A DNA stretch of 53,076 bases from Methanohalophilus portucalensis (GCF_002761295.1 NZ_CP017881.1:747604-800679), one strand, 5' to 3'. Positions 16,550-27,939 are shown, numbered from the stretch's first letter. Translations and numbers: made by a program. Notes: generated by a model from the sequence alone, not told the origin.

Positions 16550-17773
16550 TCAGAACAGGAAGTAATCAATCAGTAAGACTGAAGTGAAGAGTGATATCCC
16601 CAGTATGGCAAGTGGAATGGTATAGTTTGATACTACGGTTTTCACATCATCGCCCGTGGTTCTCTGGATCAGCCAGAAAAATGGATCTGTAACGTAGGAA
16701 AACACCATGGTGCCAGCTGAAATCATCAATATTAGAGGGATGGTTGCCACCTCTGAAACATAGGGGCTGTAGGCGAGTATGGATGATGTTATTATTGCAG
16801 TGACAGCCCTGGAGCCCTGCGCAGTCTGGATTATCGCGGCGAAAAGAAACGGGATGAAAAGAGCAGGTACTAGGTGTCCGATTAGATTATAGGTATTTTC
16901 TGCAAATGAGCTTGCAGCAATTACTCCTCCAAGTGCCCCCGCACCGCATAGGTCAAGTAATATAATACCTGCATTGCGGCTGCCTTTTTCAAAAACTATA
17001 TCCAGGTTTTCCTTTTTTACCAGTAACAGGGAGAAACTGGCTGCAAGAATAATAGCAAGATTGATATCTGCCAGCAGGGAAGCTCCCGGCAAAAAATGGC
17101 CAATTGTCAGGAAAAAAATGGGCAGTATTAATGGAATCCATCCAATAGGTGACTTTTTTGCTGACAATTCTCTTTCTTCCCATGTGTCTTTGTGGCTGCC
17201 TCTTTTTGTAATAAGCAGGTATCCAAAAATAAAGAGAATTATGGATATGGTGATTGCAGCCAGGTTGAAGCCAGCATCAACATTAAAATTAAGATTTCTT
17301 GTAATACTGTATATAACAGGAAGCGGATACAGAAGGACAAAAGAAAGTGTGCTTGCGATTGCGGTTGCATAATAGCATTTCTTCCTGATTTCAGAGTTTA
17401 CATTCAGGTTTTCAACAAGGGGTATCATTACCACATAAGCTGTCAGGCAGCACATGAGGGGTATGGATAACAGGTAACCTGCAATCGCTGATGTAAGGGT
17501 GGGCCGTGAGGATATTTTTTGCATATCTGAGACAATTCGCTGAGCAAAATTTTCCTGTCTTATTACCAGGGCAATCAATGACCCTGAAAAAATAGGAATT
17601 GCTAGAAGTGCAAAAACCCTGCCTGCACCCTGTGTAGCCATTGAGATTGCATTTTGCTGCATCCCACTGAAAATACCATAAAAAAGGGCTGCACCTGTCA
17701 GGACAAGGAAAGGGGGTAATCTAATCTTCCAGAGAAGAATTGTTATTAATACTATAGTTATCGTGAAAATCAT
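16550..17773 (-). CDS. DUF401-type membrane protein, 5' end replaced by element insertion
   Basis: 407 residues, about 10-12 spans, resembling the archaeal DUF401 group of ion-transporter-like membrane proteins (LPPFLVLTGAALFYGIFSG, LLDLCGAGALGGVIAASS). Function unknown. The present start ATG 17773 is partly created by the integrated element: the 15-bp att core covers codons 1-5. On the other side of the element the core is preceded in frame by GTG-CAA-GCT-ATC-C and a GGTGA site, so the ancestral protein began MQAILIFTIT. The element now supplies upstream DNA with only a weak ribosome-binding site (GAGGTAT) and a TATA-like TATATA near 17825, so expression may be altered. Confidence 0.75.
   Translation of the reverse strand: MIFTITIVLITILLWKIRLPPFLVLTGAALFYGIFSGMQQNAISMATQGAGRVFALLAIPIFSGSLIALVIRQENFAQRIVSDMQKISSRPTLTSAIAGYLLSIPLMCCLTAYVVMIPLVENLNVNSEIRKKCYYATAIASTLSFVLLYPLPVIYSITRNLNFNVDAGFNLAAITISIILFIFGYLLITKRGSHKDTWEERELSAKKSPIGWIPLILPIFFLTIGHFLPGASLLADINLAIILAASFSLLLVKKENLDIVFEKGSRNAGIILLDLCGAGALGGVIAASSFAENTYNLIGHLVPALFIPFLFAAIIQTAQGSRAVTAIITSSILAYSPYVSEVATIPLILMISAGTMVFSYVTDPFFWLIQRTTGDDVKTVVSNYTIPLAILGISLFTSVLLIDYFLF
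17758..17772. other. attL core, overlapping DUF401 codons 1-5
   Basis: TTATCGTGAAAATCA, identical to 27902-27916. On the minus strand it reads as the first codons of the DUF401 gene (ATT TTC ACG ATA). A nearby inverted repeat ATTCAAATA (17784-17792) / TATTTGAAT (17808-17816) could be an arm site for the integrase. Confidence 0.8.
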
Positions 17774-17905
17774 TACGATATAGATTCAAATACCTCTAAT
17801 TGTACTATATTTGAATTGATTGTATATATTATTTCTTATTATATGATTGAAAAAATAAAAATAGTTATTTTTGGAATTTAAATTCAATCGGCAACATACA
17901 GATTT

Positions 17906-17943
17906 TTATACTTTGTCAATTTATGTAAATAGGGTGTATCCTA
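17906..17943 (+). promoter_or_regulatory. promoter shared by the two MGxxDxDY genes, copy 1
   Basis: TTATACTTTG lies 29 bases before ATG 17944; ATTTATGTAAA and a GTGTAT ribosome-binding region follow. The same boxes at the same spacing precede the gene at 25798, although the DNA between differs, so the two genes are probably controlled together. Confidence 0.55.
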
Positions 17944-18417
17944 ATGGGATTGGCAGACAGAGATTATACAAAAAGGGATTCAAACGGAAATCTTACAACA
18001 TCAAAAAACCATACTTATCAAAAATATAGTTATCATAAATCAGCTTCCAAATCGTCCACTATATCTTCTAAAGAACAATTTTCTAAATCATCTGGTAAGG
18101 ATTATCCTATTTCAAATACTACTTTGGAACAAAAGAAATCTGAACTTGCAGCTGTTTTAAGTAACCCAGATATACCCAAAGATGAAAAAATAAGATTAAA
18201 ACAAAAGTTAAAAGCTGATATTAAATACATCAAAATATCACTGGGGCATGAAACAAATATTGACGTCATAAATACTTCGACAAATGAATACAATTATTCA
18301 TCTGATAAAACTACATTTTGCAAAAAACCAAAATCAGAATCGAAACCAAAACCCCTATCTGAAAAAATCACTTCCAAATTAGGTAACATATTCAAATCTA
18401 TTAAAGGCAAAAGTTGA
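17944..18417 (+). CDS. hydrophilic protein with N-terminal MGLADRDY motif
   Basis: 157 residues, very rich in Lys, Ser and Asn, no membrane span. It starts MGLADRDYTKRD, matching MGVQDKDYPKSN of the AN1-finger protein at 25798; comparable MGLxDRDY starts occur on some archaeal and bacterial membrane proteins such as rhomboid-type proteases, but their role is unknown to me. A central segment (KKSELAAVLSNPDIPKDEKI) is probably helical. Its stop lies 45 bases before the AN1 gene, which has the finger and span but lacks the motif. Together the two look like a split form of the 25798 protein. Confidence 0.7.
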   Translation: MGLADRDYTKRDSNGNLTTSKNHTYQKYSYHKSASKSSTISSKEQFSKSSGKDYPISNTTLEQKKSELAAVLSNPDIPKDEKIRLKQKLKADIKYIKISLGHETNIDVINTSTNEYNYSSDKTTFCKKPKSESKPKPLSEKITSKLGNIFKSIKGKS

Positions 18418-18461
18418 ATATTGCATTGTTTGACAACATACTGATTTTATTGGGGGGAATT

Positions 18462-18983
18462 ATGTCTTCAGGTAATAACAAAGAAAATAACAGTAAATGT
18501 TGGTATTGTGGCAAATCTCCCAAAGATACAAAATATTCTTATGAAACTGGTGGTGAAAAGAGAATAAATACGAAAGGATATGGAGACGTTTTTAAATGTA
18601 ATCTTTGTGGATACTATTTTTGTGAGGAACACCACTTACCTGAAAAACATGATTGTTCTGGTTTGTTATTGAAAATGAAAATACGAAATAATAATGGTAA
18701 ATTGGAATATTCCTATTCAAATCTGATGAAATCAGATTCTAAATCCAATCAAAATATCAAAGATAAAATTAAACTTTCAGGAAGAAAGAATTATCCAATA
18801 AATAGTAAATCAGATGAAGCTCGAATCAGTTATAGAAAACCAACTCCTATTACACAAAAAAATGAAATAGAGTATTTAAATAATCCATCATTAAGAAATT
18901 GGATTTTGAACAATATAATTCTTTTATTAATGGTTCTTGTAATTATAGGTGCAATTGTATATTATTTGTTTATATACTCTTAA
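18462..18983 (+). CDS. AN1-type zinc finger protein with C-terminal membrane anchor
   Basis: 173 residues. Residues 13-65 hold the finger: CWYC, then a 25-residue loop, then CNLCGYYFCEEHHLPEKHDC, which fits the AN1 spacing of Cys and His ligands. A charged linker follows, and the last 25 residues are one hydrophobic span (NIILLLMVLVIIGAIVYYLF). The start at ATG 18462 is preceded by TTGGGGGGAAT; the longer frame has no site. Probably bound to the inner face of the membrane. A paralogue lies at 25798 in the same element. Function unknown. Confidence 0.8.
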   Translation: MSSGNNKENNSKCWYCGKSPKDTKYSYETGGEKRINTKGYGDVFKCNLCGYYFCEEHHLPEKHDCSGLLLKMKIRNNNGKLEYSYSNLMKSDSKSNQNIKDKIKLSGRKNYPINSKSDEARISYRKPTPITQKNEIEYLNNPSLRNWILNNIILLLMVLVIIGAIVYYLFIYS

Positions 18984-18985
18984 CA

Positions 18986-20008
18986 TCAATATTTCATTAA
19001 TTTTTTTTCTTTCATGCCGTTTTCTAATATATCACGAACGTATATTCCTTGTGGAGTATAGTTCACAATTGCAAATCCACATGCATAAATATGATATTCA
19101 TTCAATTTATGTTTTATATGCCCCCGACTAAATTCCTCATTGTTTTTACTCAATATTTCAATATCACCCTTTTTAACCGCATTTTTACCTTTAACACGAA
19201 CAGGTATCATATTACCCCATTTTTTAAAGAAATTCATATCTAAATATTCCCCATTATACTTTTTAGCTAACTTTTTACGTCTGTTTATTCTTTCTTCATT
19301 CTTCTTTTGGGTTTCAGATTTTTGAGTATTTGGTTGTTCTTTGGATTTGTTTTGAAGTTCGGAGACTTTCTTTGCATATTCTTCTATACGTTTCTGATGA
19401 GTCATTTGAAGTGAGAATTTTTCAGCTTCTAATTTTTTTATTTCCTTATCTTTTTCCATTAATTGCGATTCTAAATTTTCATCATCGGATTTTTCATTTC
19501 CATGACTATCATATTCATTACCAAAATCGTTAGGAGTATTCATATTGTTGGGAGGAGTGCCACTAAAATTGTTTCCTGTTCCGTTATTCAAATATGCAAC
19601 ACCATTGTTGCCATATTTTTCACGCATTCGTTTATCGTAATTGGATACAATCTGATTATGTAATGCGATTCGTTCTTCACGATACCCAAATGGGTTATCT
19701 ATACAGGCATCTTTGCCCATTGGTGTCAATTGGTAGTATGATGGTCGTTTTCCGTACTTTATAATATATCCACGTTTTACATATCTCGATAAATGGCTTC
19801 TGAATGAACTATATTCTCCTTTATATTCAGAATATTCATACATATCTTTAGATGTCATATCCACATTGATTATAGGTTTCAATATTTCCTGTTTTGCGAT
19901 ACAATCTCGTTCATGACATTTACCATGTAATTTTTTCTTTTTCTTTGCGTTTGTATTATTTTCAAAATTTTCATTATTATTACTATTTTTTGGAATTTGA
20001 ATTTTCAT
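18986..20008 (-). CDS. winged-helix and coiled-coil protein of the element
   Basis: 340 residues. The basic N-terminus (NAKKKKKLHG) precedes a winged helix at about 45-105 (SFRSHLSRYVKRGYIIKYGK, YYQLTPMGKDAC). An Asn/Gly-rich linker leads to a long coiled coil at about 180-255 (ESQLMEKDKEIKKLEAEKFS) and a C-terminal region with a second possible globular domain. It lies convergent with the AN1 gene (2 bases apart) and is preceded by an inverted repeat over a TATA box at 20086-20113. Likely a DNA-binding regulator or partition-type protein; no named family recognised. Confidence 0.65.
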   Translation of the reverse strand: MKIQIPKNSNNNENFENNTNAKKKKKLHGKCHERDCIAKQEILKPIINVDMTSKDMYEYSEYKGEYSSFRSHLSRYVKRGYIIKYGKRPSYYQLTPMGKDACIDNPFGYREERIALHNQIVSNYDKRMREKYGNNGVAYLNNGTGNNFSGTPPNNMNTPNDFGNEYDSHGNEKSDDENLESQLMEKDKEIKKLEAEKFSLQMTHQKRIEEYAKKVSELQNKSKEQPNTQKSETQKKNEERINRRKKLAKKYNGEYLDMNFFKKWGNMIPVRVKGKNAVKKGDIEILSKNNEEFSRGHIKHKLNEYHIYACGFAIVNYTPQGIYVRDILENGMKEKKLMKY

Positions 20009-20472
20009 AATATCACCATTGATAATATTGTTTTCACTATAACGATTTCAACGATTTCACCTCTCAATTCCTGTGGGTAACCGAAGATGTAATGTATATA
20101 TATAGATTACATCATTAATATATAATACTTTTTATTGAAATGTATTTGAAGAACAGATATATATTTATTCATAAATTGAAGAACAAATCGACATACATCA
20201 TTTCAATGAATGGTGAACAATTCATTTCAGGTGTTTGAAAAATGGCAAAAATTATCAAACGTCATTTGTCGTTTATTACATCGACAAAATAATTGTGCAA
20301 AAATGAACATATTTATACAATACTTTCATCGGATATATACTTCTTGTTTGAATTATTATCACCTTTACTCAAAAGGTAAACTTTTACTGTCTGTTCGAAA
20401 TGTATATATAGAAGTTGCGATATTGAGTAGTATGTATTATTCAATACGAATTATATTAATAAGATGATTTAA
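20009..20472. other. intergenic control region between divergent element genes
   Basis: No credible gene. It holds the TATA-spanning inverted repeat described separately, two copies of TTGAAGAACA about 30 bases apart (near 20147 and 20177), CGATTTCA repeated near 20043, and a TATA box GTATATATAG near 20401 that would start the RHH/ATPase transcript about 45 bases before its first codon. A frame at 20210-20467 has atypical composition and no ribosome-binding site. Confidence 0.5.
20086..20113. promoter_or_regulatory. inverted repeat around a TATA box
   Basis: GATGTAAT (20086-20093) and ATTACATC (20106-20113) enclose GTATATATATAG, about 80 bases before the winged-helix gene. The half-site GATGTAATC recurs inside the repeat array (23926-23934 and its copy), so one element regulator may bind both places. 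Confidence 0.5.
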
Positions 20473-20616
20473 ATGAAACAACGAATAACAATAACAGTCG
20501 ATGAAGATATATTGCCAATTTTCGATGAGATGGCAAATGAAAGAATGATAGCTAAAAGTAGATTAATTAATCAATTAATTAAAAATGAGATAGACAAATG
20601 GAAAAATACGAGGTAA
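20473..20616 (+). CDS. 47-residue ribbon-helix-helix (CopG/Arc-type) regulator
   Basis: Starts MKQRITITVDEDILPIFDEM: a basic beta strand (RITITV), then two helices with SRLINQLIKNEIDKW, the classic RHH pattern of dimeric DNA-binding proteins that control plasmid copy number or partition. It ends 4 bases before the ATPase gene and is probably its co-transcribed repressor. The TATA box lies about 70 bases upstream. Confidence 0.85.
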   Translation: MKQRITITVDEDILPIFDEMANERMIAKSRLINQLIKNEIDKWKNTR

Positions 20617-20620
20617 CAAT

Positions 20621-22513
20621 ATGGAAAAAAAAGAAAAAAATGAAACGCCCTGTCAGACGCAACAGGAAAATATTAATGCCAATAATAAAAATAATAACAA
20701 ATTATATAAAGATTTCGATACAAATGCAGATTTAACAAATAACAACGATAAAGATGAAATTGATAATCCACAAAAAGAGAAAATAATACAAACCATTTCA
20801 AAAGAATATAAAATTCCATTAGATACAATACGAGAAATATATAACATTGGTATTATAGAATTACAAAATGAAAATAAAGAATCAGAATATATCAGTAAAA
20901 TAAAGGAAAAGTGTAAAGTTTCCGATGATGACGCAGAAGATATAATGGATATAATATCTACAAATGCACGAAATCCCGATGCTATTGAAAATTATAAACA
21001 GAACCGAGAGCTTGAAATCCATACTTCAGATGTTATATTTACAATCACGTATGTAAAAAATCAATACCATATTCAATTAATGGAAGATGGAAAAAAGTTA
21101 GGTATGAATTATTCTGCAAAAAAATCCTTACTTACATCTCATCCACAAAGAGATAAAGATATTATAAAATTGATACAGGATTTATTAAATATTGATAGGG
21201 AAAAGGCGAAACAATCCGTTGCAGAATTAAATCGCAAAATATCAAAAGAATACTTCAAAGCTGTTGATGAACTCAAAACCAATTATGAAAAATATATTGA
21301 AACAATAGAAGATGGAGATGAAGATGATGAAAATGAACCTGAAGCGTGGGAAAATGAAGACATAATCGATAAAGCTAATGATATTCTTAATAATGGTAAT
21401 CCTTATGAATTTATACAAAAATCTACCGCAAAACACCACGCTGGTGATGAAGACTTAATAAAAATGTTAATTATTGCAAGGTCAAATCAATCAATACGAA
21501 ACAGTAATGGGTTACAACCCACTATTAATGGCGATTCGGGTTCAGGAAAATCACATGCCACATTTACATTTATAAAACATATTCCAAAAAAATATGTAAT
21601 AGAAGGTTCTTTTAGTGACAAATCCTTTTTTTATCTCGGTTTGAAACCCCCTATGGTTATCGTTAGTGATGATACTGAAATTAGTAATAGTATGGAAAAT
21701 ACATTAAAAAGGGCAATGTCAAATTTTCAAGAAAAAACTGAACATTATACTGTGAATACTGATAGAGAATCAGAAAAATTAATACTTCCTGAAAGGTCAC
21801 TCTTTTTATTAAATTCTGTAGAAATGAAAGGAGGAGATGAACTACAAAATAGACAGACGAGCTTTGCTGCCGATAATAGTAAAAAACAGGATGAATCTGT
21901 CTTTAATATTCAACAAAGAAAGGCAATGTTAGGAGAGATACCCGACCTTGCAGATGATGAAAATGTATTGATATGTAGGGCAATGTTCGATATATATGCA
22001 AAGAATCTAGATATCGTAGTCATCCCCTTTGCCGATAAAATAAAGTGGAACGATAAGAAAAATAGGCGAAATTTCGATATGTTTTTAGATATGGTCAAAG
22101 GGTTCACAATGTTAAATTTTCGACAACGCAAAAAGAACAATTCTGGATATTATATAGCTACAATTGAAGATTTTAGAGAAGCCGAAAAAATATATCATAA
22201 AATTGCAGTAAGTCAAACAACTAAACTAACAAAGGCAGAAATAAAAATGGCAAATCGAATTTCAATTAATGGAAATGCAGGAATAACTGTAAATGAATTG
22301 ACAAAATCTTTAAAAATATCAGATACAATGGTTAGAAAAAGATTAAATACACTTTTTGAAAAAACACAAATATATGAGGAAGAAGGTTCAAAAGGTACAC
22401 ATAATGAAAATACTAGCCATTATGTAAAATACAAAAAATATTATTTACCTAATTTTAATCCAAATAATATTGGTAAAATCGTATATTTAGAAGGAGATAA
22501 TGTTGATGGATAA
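20621..22513 (+). CDS. AAA-type ATPase with C-terminal winged helix, probable replication protein
   Basis: 630 residues. The N-terminal 250 residues are acidic and Asn-rich. Walker A is INGDSGSGKSHATF near residue 310, a Walker B-like MVIVSDDTE near 348, and LFLLNSVEMKGGDE contains a sensor-like Asn. A helical region and a C-terminal winged helix (ITVNELTKSLKISDTMVRKR, near 560-590) follow. The architecture suggests a helicase loader or initiator of an archaeal plasmid, in line with the RHH gene upstream and iterons downstream. No primase motifs are apparent. Base composition is very AT-rich compared with chromosomal genes. Confidence 0.75.
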   Translation: MEKKEKNETPCQTQQENINANNKNNNKLYKDFDTNADLTNNNDKDEIDNPQKEKIIQTISKEYKIPLDTIREIYNIGIIELQNENKESEYISKIKEKCKVSDDDAEDIMDIISTNARNPDAIENYKQNRELEIHTSDVIFTITYVKNQYHIQLMEDGKKLGMNYSAKKSLLTSHPQRDKDIIKLIQDLLNIDREKAKQSVAELNRKISKEYFKAVDELKTNYEKYIETIEDGDEDDENEPEAWENEDIIDKANDILNNGNPYEFIQKSTAKHHAGDEDLIKMLIIARSNQSIRNSNGLQPTINGDSGSGKSHATFTFIKHIPKKYVIEGSFSDKSFFYLGLKPPMVIVSDDTEISNSMENTLKRAMSNFQEKTEHYTVNTDRESEKLILPERSLFLLNSVEMKGGDELQNRQTSFAADNSKKQDESVFNIQQRKAMLGEIPDLADDENVLICRAMFDIYAKNLDIVVIPFADKIKWNDKKNRRNFDMFLDMVKGFTMLNFRQRKKNNSGYYIATIEDFREAEKIYHKIAVSQTTKLTKAEIKMANRISINGNAGITVNELTKSLKISDTMVRKRLNTLFEKTQIYEEEGSKGTHNENTSHYVKYKKYYLPNFNPNNIGKIVYLEGDNVDG

Positions 22514-22515
22514 TT

Positions 22516-22532
22516 ATAGGTTACAAACCTAT
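22516..22532 (+). terminator. terminator after the element ATPase
   Basis: ATAGGTT-ACA-AACCTAT stem-loop followed by ATTTTTTTATA, 3 bases after the stop codon. Confidence 0.75.
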
Positions 22533-22542
22533 ATTTTTTTAT

Positions 22543-22947
22543 AAACTACCATTATAATATGTATGGGAACCCCTATACAACCCTATACAAATCCCCATAT
22601 AACCCCCATATAACCCCTTCTTTTTTTGAATAACGGAGATACATTGACTATTTTTGCCAGATACACATAATAAGATAAAAAAACTACCATTATAATATGT
22701 ATAATAATATGCATGAAAAAAATATAGACTTCACTCATATCTAATAGGGGTTGGATACCCCTTTATATTTTACAAAATATACTCTACTATTATTAATTAT
22801 TTATTATATATATAAGGGTTTGATAAGGAGTTTGATAGACAGTTTGATAGGGGTTCGAGAGGTTATACTTATTTATTATTCAAATTATAACCAAAAATGG
22901 TAATTTAAGCGCATATTTGAATTATTATTACAAATATGCATCAAACT
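22543..22947. other. candidate replication origin with several repeat classes
   Basis: This gene-free stretch holds (1) an exact 22-bp direct repeat starting AAACTACCATTATAAT at 22543 and 22681; (2) a run of CCCCTATACAA / CCCCATATAA variants at about 22568-22616; (3) three GTTTGATA iterons at 22818, 22830 and 22842, exactly 12 bases apart, with an inverted copy at 22940-22947; (4) a GGGGT-ACCCC hairpin at 22747-22761; and (5) very AT-rich DNA. It lies directly downstream of the ATPase, the usual place for an origin in small archaeal plasmids. Confidence 0.6.
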
Positions 22948-22998
22948 GCCTATAACCGTAATTATTTGTAAATTTGAGAGAATATGACAATCTAATAG

Positions 22999-23634
22999 TC
23001 ATTTTATGTTCTTTATCTTCTCTAACTTATCCTGTTCTTCCCATTTATCTTTATATTTATACATTGTAGATGCAGGTATGTTCATAGTTCGTGCAATCTC
23101 AGCCCATGTCAAACCTTTCTTTCGATAATCCATAACCTTACGTTTATTTGGTTCTTTAGAGGGTCTTCCCCACGAATCATTTTCTTTCTTATGACGTTGA
23201 ATACCGATTTTTATTCGTTCCTGCAAAATACGTTTCTCATTTTCTGCAACCCACCCAAATAATGAGATTAACAACTTCCTGTAATGTGAATCTCCAACTG
23301 TACTCCATGATTCAGATGGAGATAATGAAACCACTTTAATGCCCTTATCTTCAAAATCCATGATTAAATTCAATGTATCAATAAATGTTCTACCTAATCG
23401 TGAGATCTCAAAAAGATAAATGGTATCAATATCATTTTCCTCAATTAATTTTAACATCTGTTTGAATCCATGTCTTTTGGTAGCTGTTACAGAACCACTA
23501 ACTCCTTCGTCAAAAAATATATTTTCGTCAGGGATTCCATTATTCTTTAACTGAATGATTTGTGTATCTATATTCTGTTCCTTCGTACTGGTTCTTGCAT
23601 AACCAACTGATTTATTATATTTTATATCTTCCAT
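22999..23634 (-). CDS. serine recombinase (resolvase/invertase family)
   Basis: 211 residues. The N-terminal catalytic domain has the Ser nucleophile in VGYARTSTKEQNIDTQ, YLFEISRLGRTFIDTL around residue 75, and the helix E region up to about 140 (LLISLFGWVAENEKRILQER). A Hin-type HTH follows (RKVMDYRKKGLTWAEIARTM, then IPASTMYKYK). It may resolve multimers or invert DNA. The gene reads toward the candidate origin, and a pair of inverted ATGTTACAT sites lies at its promoter. Confidence 0.92.
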   Translation of the reverse strand: MEDIKYNKSVGYARTSTKEQNIDTQIIQLKNNGIPDENIFFDEGVSGSVTATKRHGFKQMLKLIEENDIDTIYLFEISRLGRTFIDTLNLIMDFEDKGIKVVSLSPSESWSTVGDSHYRKLLISLFGWVAENEKRILQERIKIGIQRHKKENDSWGRPSKEPNKRKVMDYRKKGLTWAEIARTMNIPASTMYKYKDKWEEQDKLEKIKNIK

Positions 23635-23646
23635 AAAATATATTTT

Positions 23647-23692
23647 ATGTTACATACTATATAAACATTTTTATTAGGGTGTTATGTAACAT
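23647..23692. promoter_or_regulatory. inverted ATGTTACAT pair upstream of the serine recombinase
   Basis: ATGTTACAT (23647-23655) and ATGTAACAT (23684-23692) are exact inverses flanking the TATA-like CTATATAAAC, 13 bases before the recombinase start. They fit an autoregulatory operator or a crossover subsite. Confidence 0.5.
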
Positions 23693-23863
23693 AATAGAGG
23701 TGTATTATGGAATGGGAATTTGCGAAAGGTAACAATAGTGAACAGTCTAAAACGAAAAATCTTTACACTCTACTCTACTGCCCCTCTTTTTTTAAACTCT
23801 CTAAATAAATTTTGTCGGACTATGCCTATAGTATAAGAGAGAAAAATCGTGGTTTGAGAAAGG

Positions 23864-23995
23864 TTTATATAATACGAAAATTTGAGATACAAACCAATCT
23901 TTAACTATTGAGTGAACATTACACATGATGTAATCTTTTACCAGTAGAACCCTCATATATCCTCATTTTTGGCATATTTTGGTATAAGAGGATAT
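23864..23995 (+). ncRNA. candidate repeat RNA, copy 1, with conserved TATA box
   Basis: A TATA box TTTATATAAT (23864-23873) is preceded by a purine-rich BRE-like GAAAGG. Downstream of the expected start are two hairpins: ATTACA-CATGA-TGTAAT (23918-23934) and ATATCCTC / GAGGATAT (23957-23995). No convincing open frame follows. The promoter is retained unchanged in all three copies, including the diverged third one. Confidence 0.45.
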
Positions 23996-24110
23996 GTAAC
24001 TCCTTTCAAACAAAATAGTTCCATATTGATAGGATATGAACTTTACAACATCAAATCTTTTTCTTACATCTTGTTGCAAATCGAAATTGAAGAGAATAGT
24101 ACATGAACGT

Positions 24111-24140
24111 AATAACACTAATAGATTTGTTTGTGTTATT
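24111..24140 (-). terminator. hairpin just after the repeated small gene, copy 1
   Basis: AATAACAC / GTGTTATT form an 8-bp stem. On the minus strand it begins 5 bases after the TGA at 24146-24148, where it can end the small-gene transcript. The same hairpin follows copy 2 (746 bases further right). Confidence 0.55.
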
Positions 24141-24145
24141 GATAT

Positions 24146-24361
24146 TCAATCTTCCTTTCTACAAATTGTTAATATATTACCATCTTCCATCCATTGAAAC
24201 TAATCGTCTATCCAGTCGCCAATCAGTAATATATATTCAACATTTACCTCATTACAGAAATACGATAATAAAGCTGCCAGTTTTGAATTTTCAATAGATT
24301 TGTCTGAAAACCTATTTTCAAATGTTATTTCGTTATTTATTTTCAAAACCCATTTTTGCAT
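24146..24361 (-). CDS. small repeated gene, copy 1, with one in-frame amber codon
   Basis: Starts MQKWVLKINNEITFENRFSD; an amber codon follows IGDWIDD after 53 residues. If UAG is read, 17 further residues (FQWMEDGNILTICRKED) follow to TGA, 71 in total. GGATGAT lies 7 bases before ATG. A TATA box TTTATATAAT (24429-24438, minus strand) lies about 68 bases upstream, and a terminator hairpin begins 5 bases after TGA. No family recognised; acidic and soluble. An identical copy lies at 24892. Whether the short or the long product is made cannot be told from sequence alone. Confidence 0.6.
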
Positions 24362-24607
24362 TTTACATATCATCCTTTATTTGTTGGAATTGAGAGTGAC
24401 ATAATTATCGAAGTAAGAGAGTACAAATATTATATAAATGTGACTGTATTTTAAAAAAGAAGCATGGTGTACATAACAATAGTGAACAGTCTAAAACGAA
24501 AAAACTTTATACCCTACTCTAATGCCCCTCTTTTTTTGAACTCTCTAAACAATTTTTGTCGGACTATGCCTATAGTATAAGAGAGAAAAATCGAGTTTTG
24601 GGAAAGA

Positions 24608-24741
24608 TTTATATAATACGAAAATTCGAGATACAAACCAATCGTTCAACTATTGAGATGAACATTACACATGATGTAATCTTTTACCAGTAGAACCCTC
24701 ATATATCCTCATTTTTGGCATATTTTGGTATAAGAGGATAT
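24608..24741 (+). ncRNA. candidate repeat RNA, copy 2 (hybrid)
   Basis: Same TATA box (24608-24617) and both hairpins as copy 1. Its leader carries the third copy's variants and its hairpins those of the first copy, reflecting the crossover. Confidence 0.4.
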
Positions 24742-24891
24742 GTAACTCCTTTCAAACAAAATAGTTCCATATTGATAGGATATGAACTTTACAACATCAA
24801 ATCTTTTTCTTACATCTTGTTGCAAATCGAAATTGAAGAGAATAGTACATGAACGTAATAACACTAATAGATTTGTTTGTGTTATTGATAT

Positions 24892-25107
24892 TCAATCTTC
24901 CTTTCTACAAATTGTTAATATATTACCATCTTCCATCCATTGAAACTAATCGTCTATCCAGTCGCCAATCAGTAATATATATTCAACATTTACCTCATTA
25001 CAGAAATACGATAATAAAGCTGCCAGTTTTGAATTTTCAATAGATTTGTCTGAAAACCTATTTTCAAATGTTATTTCGTTATTTATTTTCAAAACCCATT
25101 TTTGCAT
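24892..25107 (-). CDS. small repeated gene, copy 2, with in-frame amber codon
   Basis: Identical to the copy at 24146-24361, including the amber codon (24946-24948), ribosome-binding site, TATA box (25175-25184) and downstream hairpin. The lack of any difference shows the duplication is recent, so conservation between the two copies is not evidence of selection. Confidence 0.6.
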
Positions 25108-25353
25108 TTTACATATCATCCTTTATTTGTTGGAATTGAGAGTGACATAATTATCGAAGTAAGAGAGTACAAATATTATATAAATGTGACTGTATTTTAA
25201 AAAAGAAGCATGGTGTACATAACAATAGTGAACAGTCTAAAACGAAAAAACTTTATACCCTACTCTAATGCCCCTCTTTTTTTGAACTCTCTAAACAATT
25301 TTTGTCGGACTATGCCTATAGTATAAGAGAGAAAAATCGAGTTTTGGGAAAGA

Positions 25354-25485
25354 TTTATATAATACGAAAATTCGAGATACAAACCAATCGTTCAACTATT
25401 GAGATGAACATTACACATGAAGTAATCTTTTACAAGTAGAACTCTCATATACCCTCATTTTTGGCGTGTTTTGGCATTAAATGTG
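25354..25485 (+). ncRNA. candidate repeat RNA, copy 3, diverged
   Basis: The TATA box (25354-25363) is unchanged, but the hairpin region differs: the first stem has one mismatch (GAAGTAATC) and the second stem is largely lost (ACCCTC with AATGTG instead of GAGGAT). The small gene is absent after this copy. Confidence 0.35.
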
Positions 25486-25759
25486 AATATACACCTTTCA
25501 AACAAAATAGTTCCATATTGAGAGGATATGAACTTACAACATCAAATCTTTTTCTTATATCTTGTTGCAAACCGAAAATGTAGGAAAATAGTCTATGAAT
25601 GATGAAGATATTTGAATAAATGGGATTATTTAATTATTCTCAAAAAGATGCAATAATGTGTGAAACATTATATTCTTTCATAAGAAAAATTCTATAAATA
25701 AAGTTATATAACATGAATATAAGGCACGTAAACAAATTATAGGAGTATTACCAAACCTA

Positions 25760-25797
25760 TTATACTTTGAATATTTATGTAAAATGGATGTATTACA
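25760..25797 (+). promoter_or_regulatory. promoter shared by the two MGxxDxDY genes, copy 2
   Basis: TTATACTTTG lies 29 bases before ATG 25798, with ATTTATGTAAA next and GATGTAT as a ribosome-binding region, matching the arrangement before 17944. Confidence 0.55.
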
Positions 25798-26217
25798 ATG
25801 GGAGTTCAAGATAAAGATTACCCAAAAAGTAATTTTAACTCAAATCAATCAGAAAAAGAAATCGTTAAGTGTTTTCATTGTGGGATTACCCCCGATAAAT
25901 ACAATAGTTTAATGGATGCAGTTAATATAGATGACAAAGGTCATCTAAAACATAAAAGTAATTGTTCCTTCAAGGTATGCAAAAACTGTGGGGAAATTTT
26001 TTGCCCAATCGATATTTTACCTGAAAAACATAATTGTATTGGTAAACCAAATGAAAACTCTCAAAATAATCATACGATTGAACCATATAATTGGTTTGCT
26101 TCGGAACAAGAAAAAAGAAACAAGAAACAACCATCTTACTATTCTTTTATACCAAAAATACTCGCTTTATTGGTGATAATTGCATTACTATTGTTGTATC
26201 TTTATCTAAACACATAA
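25798..26217 (+). CDS. MGVQDKDY-motif AN1 zinc finger protein with C-terminal membrane anchor
   Basis: 139 residues joining three parts found in two separate genes at 17944-18983: the N-terminal MGVQDKDYPK motif, an AN1-type finger (CFHC, then VCKNCGEIFCPIDILPEKHN-C) and a C-terminal span (ILALLVIIALLLLYLYL). At the first His ligand position of the finger there is Asp (C-P-I-D), so metal binding may differ from its paralogue. The gene is convergent with the integrase, 11 bases apart. Function unknown. Confidence 0.78.
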   Translation: MGVQDKDYPKSNFNSNQSEKEIVKCFHCGITPDKYNSLMDAVNIDDKGHLKHKSNCSFKVCKNCGEIFCPIDILPEKHNCIGKPNENSQNNHTIEPYNWFASEQEKRNKKQPSYYSFIPKILALLVIIALLLLYLYLNT

Positions 26218-26228
26218 GAAGTCGTTTT

Positions 26229-27836
26229 TCACTCACCTATATCGTACTTTTTCTTTATTTCTTCTATTTTTTCGAGATAGGGTTCTTTTATACGTTCAAT
26301 TTCATATTCAAATCTTCCTTTTTCTTTTTTTAATATTTTTATTGTTCTTTTGTAACTATCAATGTCTTTCGTAGTCAAATTGACATATTCTTTGCCATCA
26401 ATAATAGTAGTTTTAATTTTATTTTTGTCAGTGCCTATTAGAGTTAATTTTTCAATGGGTTTCATACCATATGTTAGATACTTATTATATTCCTTTATCC
26501 AGTACTCTTTATCCTCTATTTCTTTTTGATATGGATAGGTAATTGCATCTATTTTTACTTGTTCATTATTAACTTCACTTTCCATTCTCATCATTTTTAT
26601 TTCTTTATTATGTTCTATTTCCATTTCAGCTATTTTCTTTTCAAGTCTTCTTTCTCTATCTTTTATTAGGTTTATATTGACTTTTTCTGTAAACATCAAA
26701 TGGTTCATGTAATCAACATATTTGTCTTTTAAAACTGTCACAGCTTCTTCAGGAGTTCCATAATTTGTCAAATACGTTTCATATGATTCACCTGTTGATT
26801 TTCCAGCTAAAAAATGTACGTCTTGTATTCCGTAACCATAACTATGCAATGTTTTTATGAAGAAACTACGTAAATTATGTGTACGAAGCTTATTGTATTT
26901 CCCCTCTCCAGTTGATAATCCAGATTCATGTGCGATTTTCACCATATATTTGCCTATATTATGTGGTCGTAAACATCGTTTTTTATCATCAAAATCATCC
27001 AAATAATAGTCAGGTATATCCCGCATTAGAAATAACTAATCACTATGGTTTCTCCATTCACGTTTACTTTTCAATATATTAGCGGGTTTCCCTCTATAAT
27101 TTACATTTTTATTATCTTTGTTTTTATATGTAGGGTTGCGGTTTCTCCATTCTAAATATTCACATACAGCTTTAGTAGCTTCAGGATTTAAAAAGGAAAG
27201 GTGCTCCACATCTGTTTTTCCTCTTTTTAATAATTCTAATGTAACTATTTTATTTTCATCAATATTTTCCTAAACATCACCAACAGTCAATTTCGTAATA
27301 TCATCAGACGCCATACCCGTCGATACTGCAACTAAAATATAAGCTCTTATTAGAGGATTTTCTCCTGCATAATTTTCTAAAACATTCTTAATATCTTCAT
27401 AAGTTAATCTTTCATTATTTCCATCTTTCTTATTTGTTTTTTTTGCTATGACATTTTCAGAAATAGGAATATCATAATATTTGTAAAAGTTATGAATACA
27501 CCGAAGTCTCTGATTAACTGTTTTTTCCGAGGAATTTCTTTCATTTATCAAATAATTTTTAAATTTACGAATATATCGTATGTGTTTTTGCCTTTGTATA
27601 ATAACTTTGTCATCTAATTCGTCGAGTGCTTCATCTATCAATTCATCTGGTGTTTTCCCTGTGAATTTTACATATATTTGTAATGTACTTTTGTAATTTT
27701 TTCTTGTGTTAATACTTTTTTTACTTTCTATCCATTCTTTACATGATTCATATTCATCAACACATTTTCCATTTATTTTGTATTTTAAATGGTCTTTATT
27801 TCGTCTTTTATCTACCTTTTTATTTTGATTATTCAT
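26229..27836 (-). CDS. tyrosine recombinase (integrase) with two in-frame amber codons
   Basis: A single frame of 536 codons, interrupted only by TAG at codons 189 and 267. Residues 30-130 are the core-binding domain (SINTRKNYKSTLQIYVKFTG). The catalytic domain starts near 160 with STGMASDDITKLTVGDV, where Arg I seems to be Ala. His320 and Arg323 lie in RTHNLRSFF, Lys346 replaces the usual box II His (LAGKS), and the nucleophile is probably Tyr355 in ESYETYL. A coiled-coil tail of about 170 residues follows. AAAGGTG precedes ATG. Read with pyrrolysine or suppressed, the protein is whole; read as stops, it is a pseudogene. It lies next to attR. Confidence 0.8.
27036..27038 (-). other. second in-frame amber codon of the integrase
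   Basis: TAG (CTA on the + strand) between REWRNHSD and LFLMRDIP, in the same frame as both halves. In related recombinases this position holds an ordinary residue just before the Leu-Phe strand. Confidence 0.85.
27270..27272 (-). other. first in-frame amber codon of the integrase
   Basis: TAG directly after KLTVGDV and before ENIDENKIVTLELLKRG, the normal continuation of the catalytic domain. The frame is unchanged across it. Confidence 0.85.
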
Positions 27837-27901
27837 TCAATTACACCTTTCATACTTTTTGATATGATTCATATGATATAATCACATCGATATCGATTTG
27901 A

Positions 27902-27916
27902 TTATCGTGAAAATCA
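27902..27916. other. attR core
   Basis: TTATCGTGAAAATCA, identical to attL. The adjacent element-side DNA carries palindromic segments (TCGATATCGA near 27888 and ATGATTCATATGAT near 27863) that may be integrase or excisionase arm sites. Confidence 0.8.
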
Positions 27917-27939
27917 GGATAGCTTGCACATTTTTCACC
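27917..27939 (-). promoter_or_regulatory. stranded ancestral start and ribosome-binding site of DUF401
   Basis: On the minus strand GGTGA (27935-27939) is followed after 5 bases by GTG CAA GCT ATC C, which continues in frame into the att core and, if the element is removed, into DUF401 (MQAILIFTITIV). This is the displaced translation start of that gene. Confidence 0.75.

Follow-up and report, generated by a model that had tools for sequence, protein, structure and literature searches.

Archaeal integrases that use protein genes or intergenic sites have been reviewed (PMC8371274, section 19). In a survey of 68 elements of Thaumarchaeota, 39 were found at tRNA genes, 15 at intergenic sites and 14 in protein genes, all of the last in 3'-distal position (PMC6563490). 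These protein-gene elements resemble the element described here in their short att repeats, in the proof by empty sites and in the restoration of a codon, which there is a stop codon; the difference is that all 14 are 3'-distal, whereas the present element sits at a 5' end. For a 5'-end site, the closest mechanistic parallel is the dusA islands of Proteobacteria (PMC4482086), in which the target of a tyrosine integrase is likewise a protein gene at its 5' end, whose start is replaced by element DNA. However, dusA islands are bacterial, use one conserved housekeeping target and occur in > 200 bacteria, while the element studied here is archaeal, targets a transporter gene and is known from one occupied genome.

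Among elements of methanogens, the virus psiM2 of Methanothermobacter encodes an integrase, ORF29, which is a distant homolog of the integrase studied here (24% identity over ~400 aa), and psiM100, like our element, avoids tRNA genes (PMC8371274, section 19). In contrast to our element, psiM2/psiM100 is a virus using an AT-rich intergenic site without effect on the neighbouring genes, and no in-frame TAG is reported for it in the open-access literature. The small plasmids of Methanothermobacter (pMTB1; NC_014409) share a Rep-type ATPase, homologous over ~300 aa, but are free and only 4.4-4.9 kb in size, whereas the element here is integrated and its integrase has no match on plasmids. Finally, the amber transposases of Methanosarcina (PMC2933860, PMC3639795) are, as in the present case, enzymes of mobile elements from a pyrrolysine-decoding archaeon and possess a conserved in-frame TAG; they are IS transposases with one TAG, in contrast to a tyrosine integrase with two TAGs here.

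The window, i.e. the whole stretch of DNA analysed, comprises 53,076 nt of the methane-making archaeon Methanohalophilus portucalensis (GCF_002761295.1 NZ_CP017881.1:747604-800679). The 15-bp sequence TTATCGTGAAAATCA occurs exactly twice in it, at 17758-17772 (attL core) and at 27902-27916 (attR core), and both copies were delimited by their exact match and by the empty sites of congeners. The G+C content drops from 0.40-0.45 outside to 0.25-0.33 between the repeats (28% for the block), and one unit of the element measures 10,144 bp (~10.1 kb). On the minus strand, the attL core forms codons 5-10 of a permease gene. When one unit is deleted, the joined flanks read, in the direction of this gene, GGTGA-AAAAT-GTG CAA GCT ATC C/TG ATT TTC ACG ATA A... 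(the slash marks the join). They align without a break to the element-free locus of five genomes of the same genus with 91-97% identity over ~855 bp, namely G001/L004 (97.1% over 854 bp), G004/L005 (92.5%), G003/L006 (92.0%), G007/L007 (92.0%) and G006/L008 (90.9%). L004, L005 and L006 have an identical core sequence, and in L007 and L008 this sequence has diverged; all five empty sites possess the GTG CAA start and GGTGA. In G005, a more distant congener with 61% protein identity, ATG takes the place of the GTG start of the five. Only one of the eight genomes of the genus is occupied. Thus, identical att repeats and a matching empty site show that the element recombined at the 15-bp core over permease codons 5-10.

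The first-pass annotation had claimed boundaries at 17758-27916 with a 15-bp direct repeat, an insertion in the 5' codons of the permease gene and a GTG start with GGTGA restored upon rejoining. Each of these is borne out by the exact repeat, by the position of the core and by the uninterrupted congener loci. The test of one of its proposed refutations, a related genome that lacks the element and whose gene starts at the present ATG, turned out in favour of the claim, because the uninterrupted gene of the congeners begins with the predicted GTG CAA behind GGTGA. An origin of the repeat by chance or by an assembly artefact might be considered in such an AT-rich region; this is refuted by the five independent empty loci and is given practically no weight here. 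Further, the genome is a single contig with 99.99% completeness. The longest word common to both boundaries has 15 bp, compared to a maximum of 13 and a mean of 9.0 when the 300 bp around each boundary were shuffled 200 times. At this locus, an archaeal element has replaced the 5' end of a protein-coding gene, a case which is exact to the nucleotide and proven by empty sites; the Thaumarchaeota survey has 3'-distal protein-gene cases only.

A near-perfect palindrome of 22 bp, ATCACATCGATATCGATTTGAT, lies at 27881-27902 and abuts attR between the core and the integrase gene. It is the sole such site in the window, with none in 100 shuffles, and is possibly a site for the integrase or a regulator. 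The predicted attP junction is ATCGATTTGATTATCGTGAAAATCATTACGATATAG; a search of viral contigs for an attP 31-mer gave no match. Neither a second copy nor a circular form of the element turned up, which was counted against our best explanation.

The interrupted gene encodes a GntP/DUF401-type permease of 407 aa (16550-17773, minus strand), which is intact in the congeners. It matches the Pfam family GntP_permease (PF02447, E 1.7e-26); the name DUF401 does not occur among its matches in the Pfam version searched. At present the gene starts with ATG ATT TTC, in which the A (17773) was contributed by the element, while TG belongs to the core. The displaced native start, GTG CAA GCT ATC C, is located at 27917-27929 (minus strand) and is conserved in the five empty sites; the native GGTGA ribosome-binding site lies upstream of it at 27935-27939. 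The left end of the element (17773-17943) now forms the permease leader and was analysed by sequence and promoter scan. It has no Shine-Dalgarno sequence 4-12 nt before the new ATG; the nearest similar motif, GAGGT, is found 18 nt before it, and an in-frame TGA is located five codons upstream. When the left end was scanned with a motif derived from upstream regions of the host, its TATA-like sites scored no better than shuffles, which also counted against the best explanation. No conservation beyond chance was found between the left end and the remnant of a related element in G006. On its own branch the permease has 10 synonymous and 5 nonsynonymous changes, compared to 6 and 5 in G001. There is no excess of amino-acid changes, and the ORF is intact without signs of decay.

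On the mdh side, the permease promoter, GGTGA and the GTG with four codons were left behind and now face the integrase gene. The native GTG there opens a 15-codon ORF (GTG CAA GCT ATC CTG ATT TTC ACG ATA ATC AAA TCG ATA TCG ATG TGA), which is followed after ~50-60 nt by the start of the integrase gene with its own AGGTG. As these arrangements show, integration exchanges the leaders of permease and integrase. Working promoters may be exchanged as well; a promoter swap at the element ends was retained as an inference, with TATA-like sites at shuffle level and a left end not conserved beyond chance with the G006 remnant. Of the earlier proposal that integration can "switch or re-promote" the target, the loss of the native promoter and ribosome-binding site thus stands, whereas a left-end promoter is not above chance. 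In the integrated state, the permease would probably survive four residues shorter, its expression could be altered and perhaps weaker, and transcription of the integrase gene may start at the permease promoter of the host.

The insertion might instead be a reversible regulatory switch under selection, in which excision restores GTG/GGTGA and the permease and integration re-promotes or silences it. The empty site is exact and scarless, the leader and start codon of the permease are replaced, its ORF is not decaying, and dusA islands supply replacement 5' ends (PMC4482086). On the other hand, a single occupied genome in eight and the lack of a detectable promoter above chance speak against a switch, and the elements of relatives break their target genes outright. 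Besides, three of the four possible junction bases would yield an ATG, GTG or TTG start and, therefore, the new ATG is weak evidence. We consider a switch quite improbable.

Seven main genes are located between the repeats. A 157-aa protein (17944-18417, plus strand) has a 71% homolog in the G006 remnant and is followed by an AN1 zinc-finger protein with a C-terminal membrane segment (18414-18983, plus strand; PF01428, E 3.3e-8). The next gene encodes a 340-aa protein (18986-20008, minus strand) without Pfam match, whose N-terminal part recurs beside the integrases of relatives. A second AN1-type zinc-finger/membrane protein (25798-26217, plus strand) matches PF01428 weakly. The tyrosine integrase (26229-27836, minus strand) is described below. 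A small serine recombinase of the resolvase/invertase type (22999-23634, minus strand; 211 aa) was assigned by PF00239 (E 1.2e-29) and the DNA invertase family phrog_125; an 89-bp remnant with 85% identity to its gene was observed in another genome of the genus (L108, G007:C1:487174-487262). Next to it, ~2.5 head-to-tail copies of an AT-rich, probably non-coding unit of ~746 bp were detected by repeat comparison (23730-25583). Over 300 bp, the identity of two stretches is 100%; hence, the duplication either is recent or has been homogenised. The units contain no long hairpins.

A further gene (20621-22513, plus strand) encodes a plasmid Rep-type ATPase of 630 aa with the Walker A motif GDSGSGKS and a C-terminal wHTH-like region. 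It has 24.8% identity to the putative Rep of pMTB1 and to two plasmid proteins of Methanothermobacter marburgensis (homologs on three plasmids, E 2e-10). Homologs with 30-39% identity are present in Methanosarcinales genomes, and pairs of integrase and Rep recur in G027/L064 and G088/L069. No relatives were found in phages or IMG/VR, and no match among solved structures. Rep-Arvir (PMC13107129) was considered as a counterpart of the replication ATPase and discarded, as the paper names no methanogen case.

From this gene content we infer that the element is best read as an integrative plasmid. The tyrosine integrase would recombine the attP of the circle with the attB in the permease gene, and the Rep-type ATPase would replicate the excised circle. 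A provirus is an unlikely alternative in our view, despite the kinship of the integrase with psiM2 ORF29 at 24% identity and despite small membrane and zinc-finger proteins that could be virion or host-takeover proteins. Searches of Pfam and PHROGs gave no capsid, terminase, portal or packaging-ATPase match, the lone exception among the virion-gene searches being a weak protease-like match of the 340-aa protein. Additionally, IMG/VR holds no close relative and the replication ATPase resembles plasmid proteins. Taken as a whole, an integrative plasmid at the permease core, with an integrase needing pyrrolysine decoding and a shortened permease, is the explanation we regard as likely.

The integrase belongs to PF00589 (Phage_integrase; E 2.1e-9, 37.8 bits at a cut-off of 27.1). 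Its AlphaFold2 model has a mean pLDDT of 84.7, and the top Foldseek matches are XerA, IntI4, Tn1549 Int, lambda Int and Cre; residues 388-530 form mostly two long helices. His320 and Arg323 (H-x-x-R) and the nucleophilic Tyr355 are invariant in 28 sequences. The position of the canonical first Arg (T-G-x-R) is A, S or G in nearly all family members, which was again counted against the best explanation; the invariant Arg205, two residues before Lys207, may substitute for it. The family (window 26229-27836; loci L034-L048 and L201-L238) possibly has an altered catalytic set. Since the gene at 26229-27836 lies wholly inside the repeats and is not split by integration, a suicidal integrase of the SSV type is excluded.

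Under the standard code, the integrase would be two ORFs; with TAG open it has 535 codons, without TAA, TGA or frameshift. The two in-frame TAGs, missed by the first-pass annotation and added here, are codons 189 (27270-27272) and 267 (27036-27038) on the minus strand. In an alignment of 67 integrase homologs, the column of codon 189 is mostly K, R or Y and that of codon 267 mostly Y or F. The former is also TAG in an integrase of Methanococcoides (G064); the TAG at codon 267 is not shared. The host genome encodes PylS (367.9 bits) with tRNA-Pyl (CUA) beside it, and TAG terminates 4 of the 318 ORFs of ≥ 150 aa sampled from the host and none of the element genes. Both interruptions are TAG, whereas TAG would result from 22% of all nonsense changes possible in the integrase gene. 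A stop at either TAG would kill the integrase, because the invariant His320, Arg323 and Tyr355 are downstream of both.

Most likely, the integrase carries two pyrrolysines. If so, mobility depends on pyrrolysine decoding: full-length integrase would be made only when tRNA-Pyl reads both UAG codons, and integration as well as excision would need a pyrrolysine-decoding cell. In the bacterium Acetohalobium, pyrrolysine insertion is regulated by the growth substrate (PMC8211752). The further reading of amber-gated mobility, with pyrrolysine at a position conserved across genera and movement only when UAG means pyrrolysine, is put forward tentatively, and we hold it to be possible but doubtful. If true, it would link the movement of the element to methylamine metabolism and restrict its family to pyrrolysine-decoding hosts, and integration would swap promoters between the integrase and the host permease.

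Alternatively, the TAGs could be ordinary nonsense mutations, the integrase dead and the element a fossil that can no longer leave the permease gene. Few of the homologs have an in-frame TAG, the relative in G006 has decayed, and amber codons of M. acetivorans can be stop or sense (PMC2933860). A host with tRNA-Pyl and PylS in which TAG nearly never terminates genes, 535 otherwise open codons and a TAG column common to another genus make such a fossil unlikely. The two-pyrrolysine reading nominates a tyrosine integrase, with two ambers and one column common to another genus, as a candidate pyrrolysine protein outside methylamine metabolism, and makes it directly testable whether a mobile element can need an expanded genetic code for its movement.

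The closest integrases are those of G142 (36-38% identity) and G030 (33-37%). An SLC41-like gene, the same in both cases, lies downstream of them, and the junctions are found ~55-75 and ~257 bp before its ATG. An integrase fragment ~1.5 kb upstream of the SLC41-like gene of G030/G142 was observed in G027 (G027:C55:12894-15380; L050, L145), a third case near one site. In G027, a TctA gene is split so that its N-terminal part (profile positions 2-56) and its C-terminal part (position 62 onwards) are 24 kb apart; in G064, a TctA gene is split near profile positions 305-312 with its halves 39 kb apart. The latter element of ~39 kb belongs to the Methanococcoides integrase with one in-frame TAG (L102:9470-10690). 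In G018, a PfpI gene beside the integrase lacks the first 66 profile positions. As relatives split TctA or adjoin the SLC41-like gene, non-tRNA targeting is a trait of the members examined, and the position within or near the target gene varies. Uniform 5'-end targeting by the family is ruled out by sites upstream of the SLC41-like gene and, within TctA, at about codon 60 or in the final third of the gene. The earlier view that such a target is unusual for an archaeal integrase accordingly applies to the exact place in the 5' codons; it does not apply in principle, non-tRNA sites being known and common to relatives. For the G027 and G064 relatives no att repeats ≥ 13 bp were found, and a 12-bp match was judged to be due to chance and dropped.

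Two further loci were recorded. The remnant in G006, of the same genus (L070:7859-11420), is a decayed relative of 3.5 kb, ~70 bp upstream of purB, and contains the AN1 and 157-aa proteins, only the C-terminus of the integrase and a rhomboid-like membrane protein. In G030 (L068:478-8616), the integrase adjoins apparent type I CRISPR cas genes (Cas3/Cas5/Cas7/Cas8-like) and a Csa3-like regulator.
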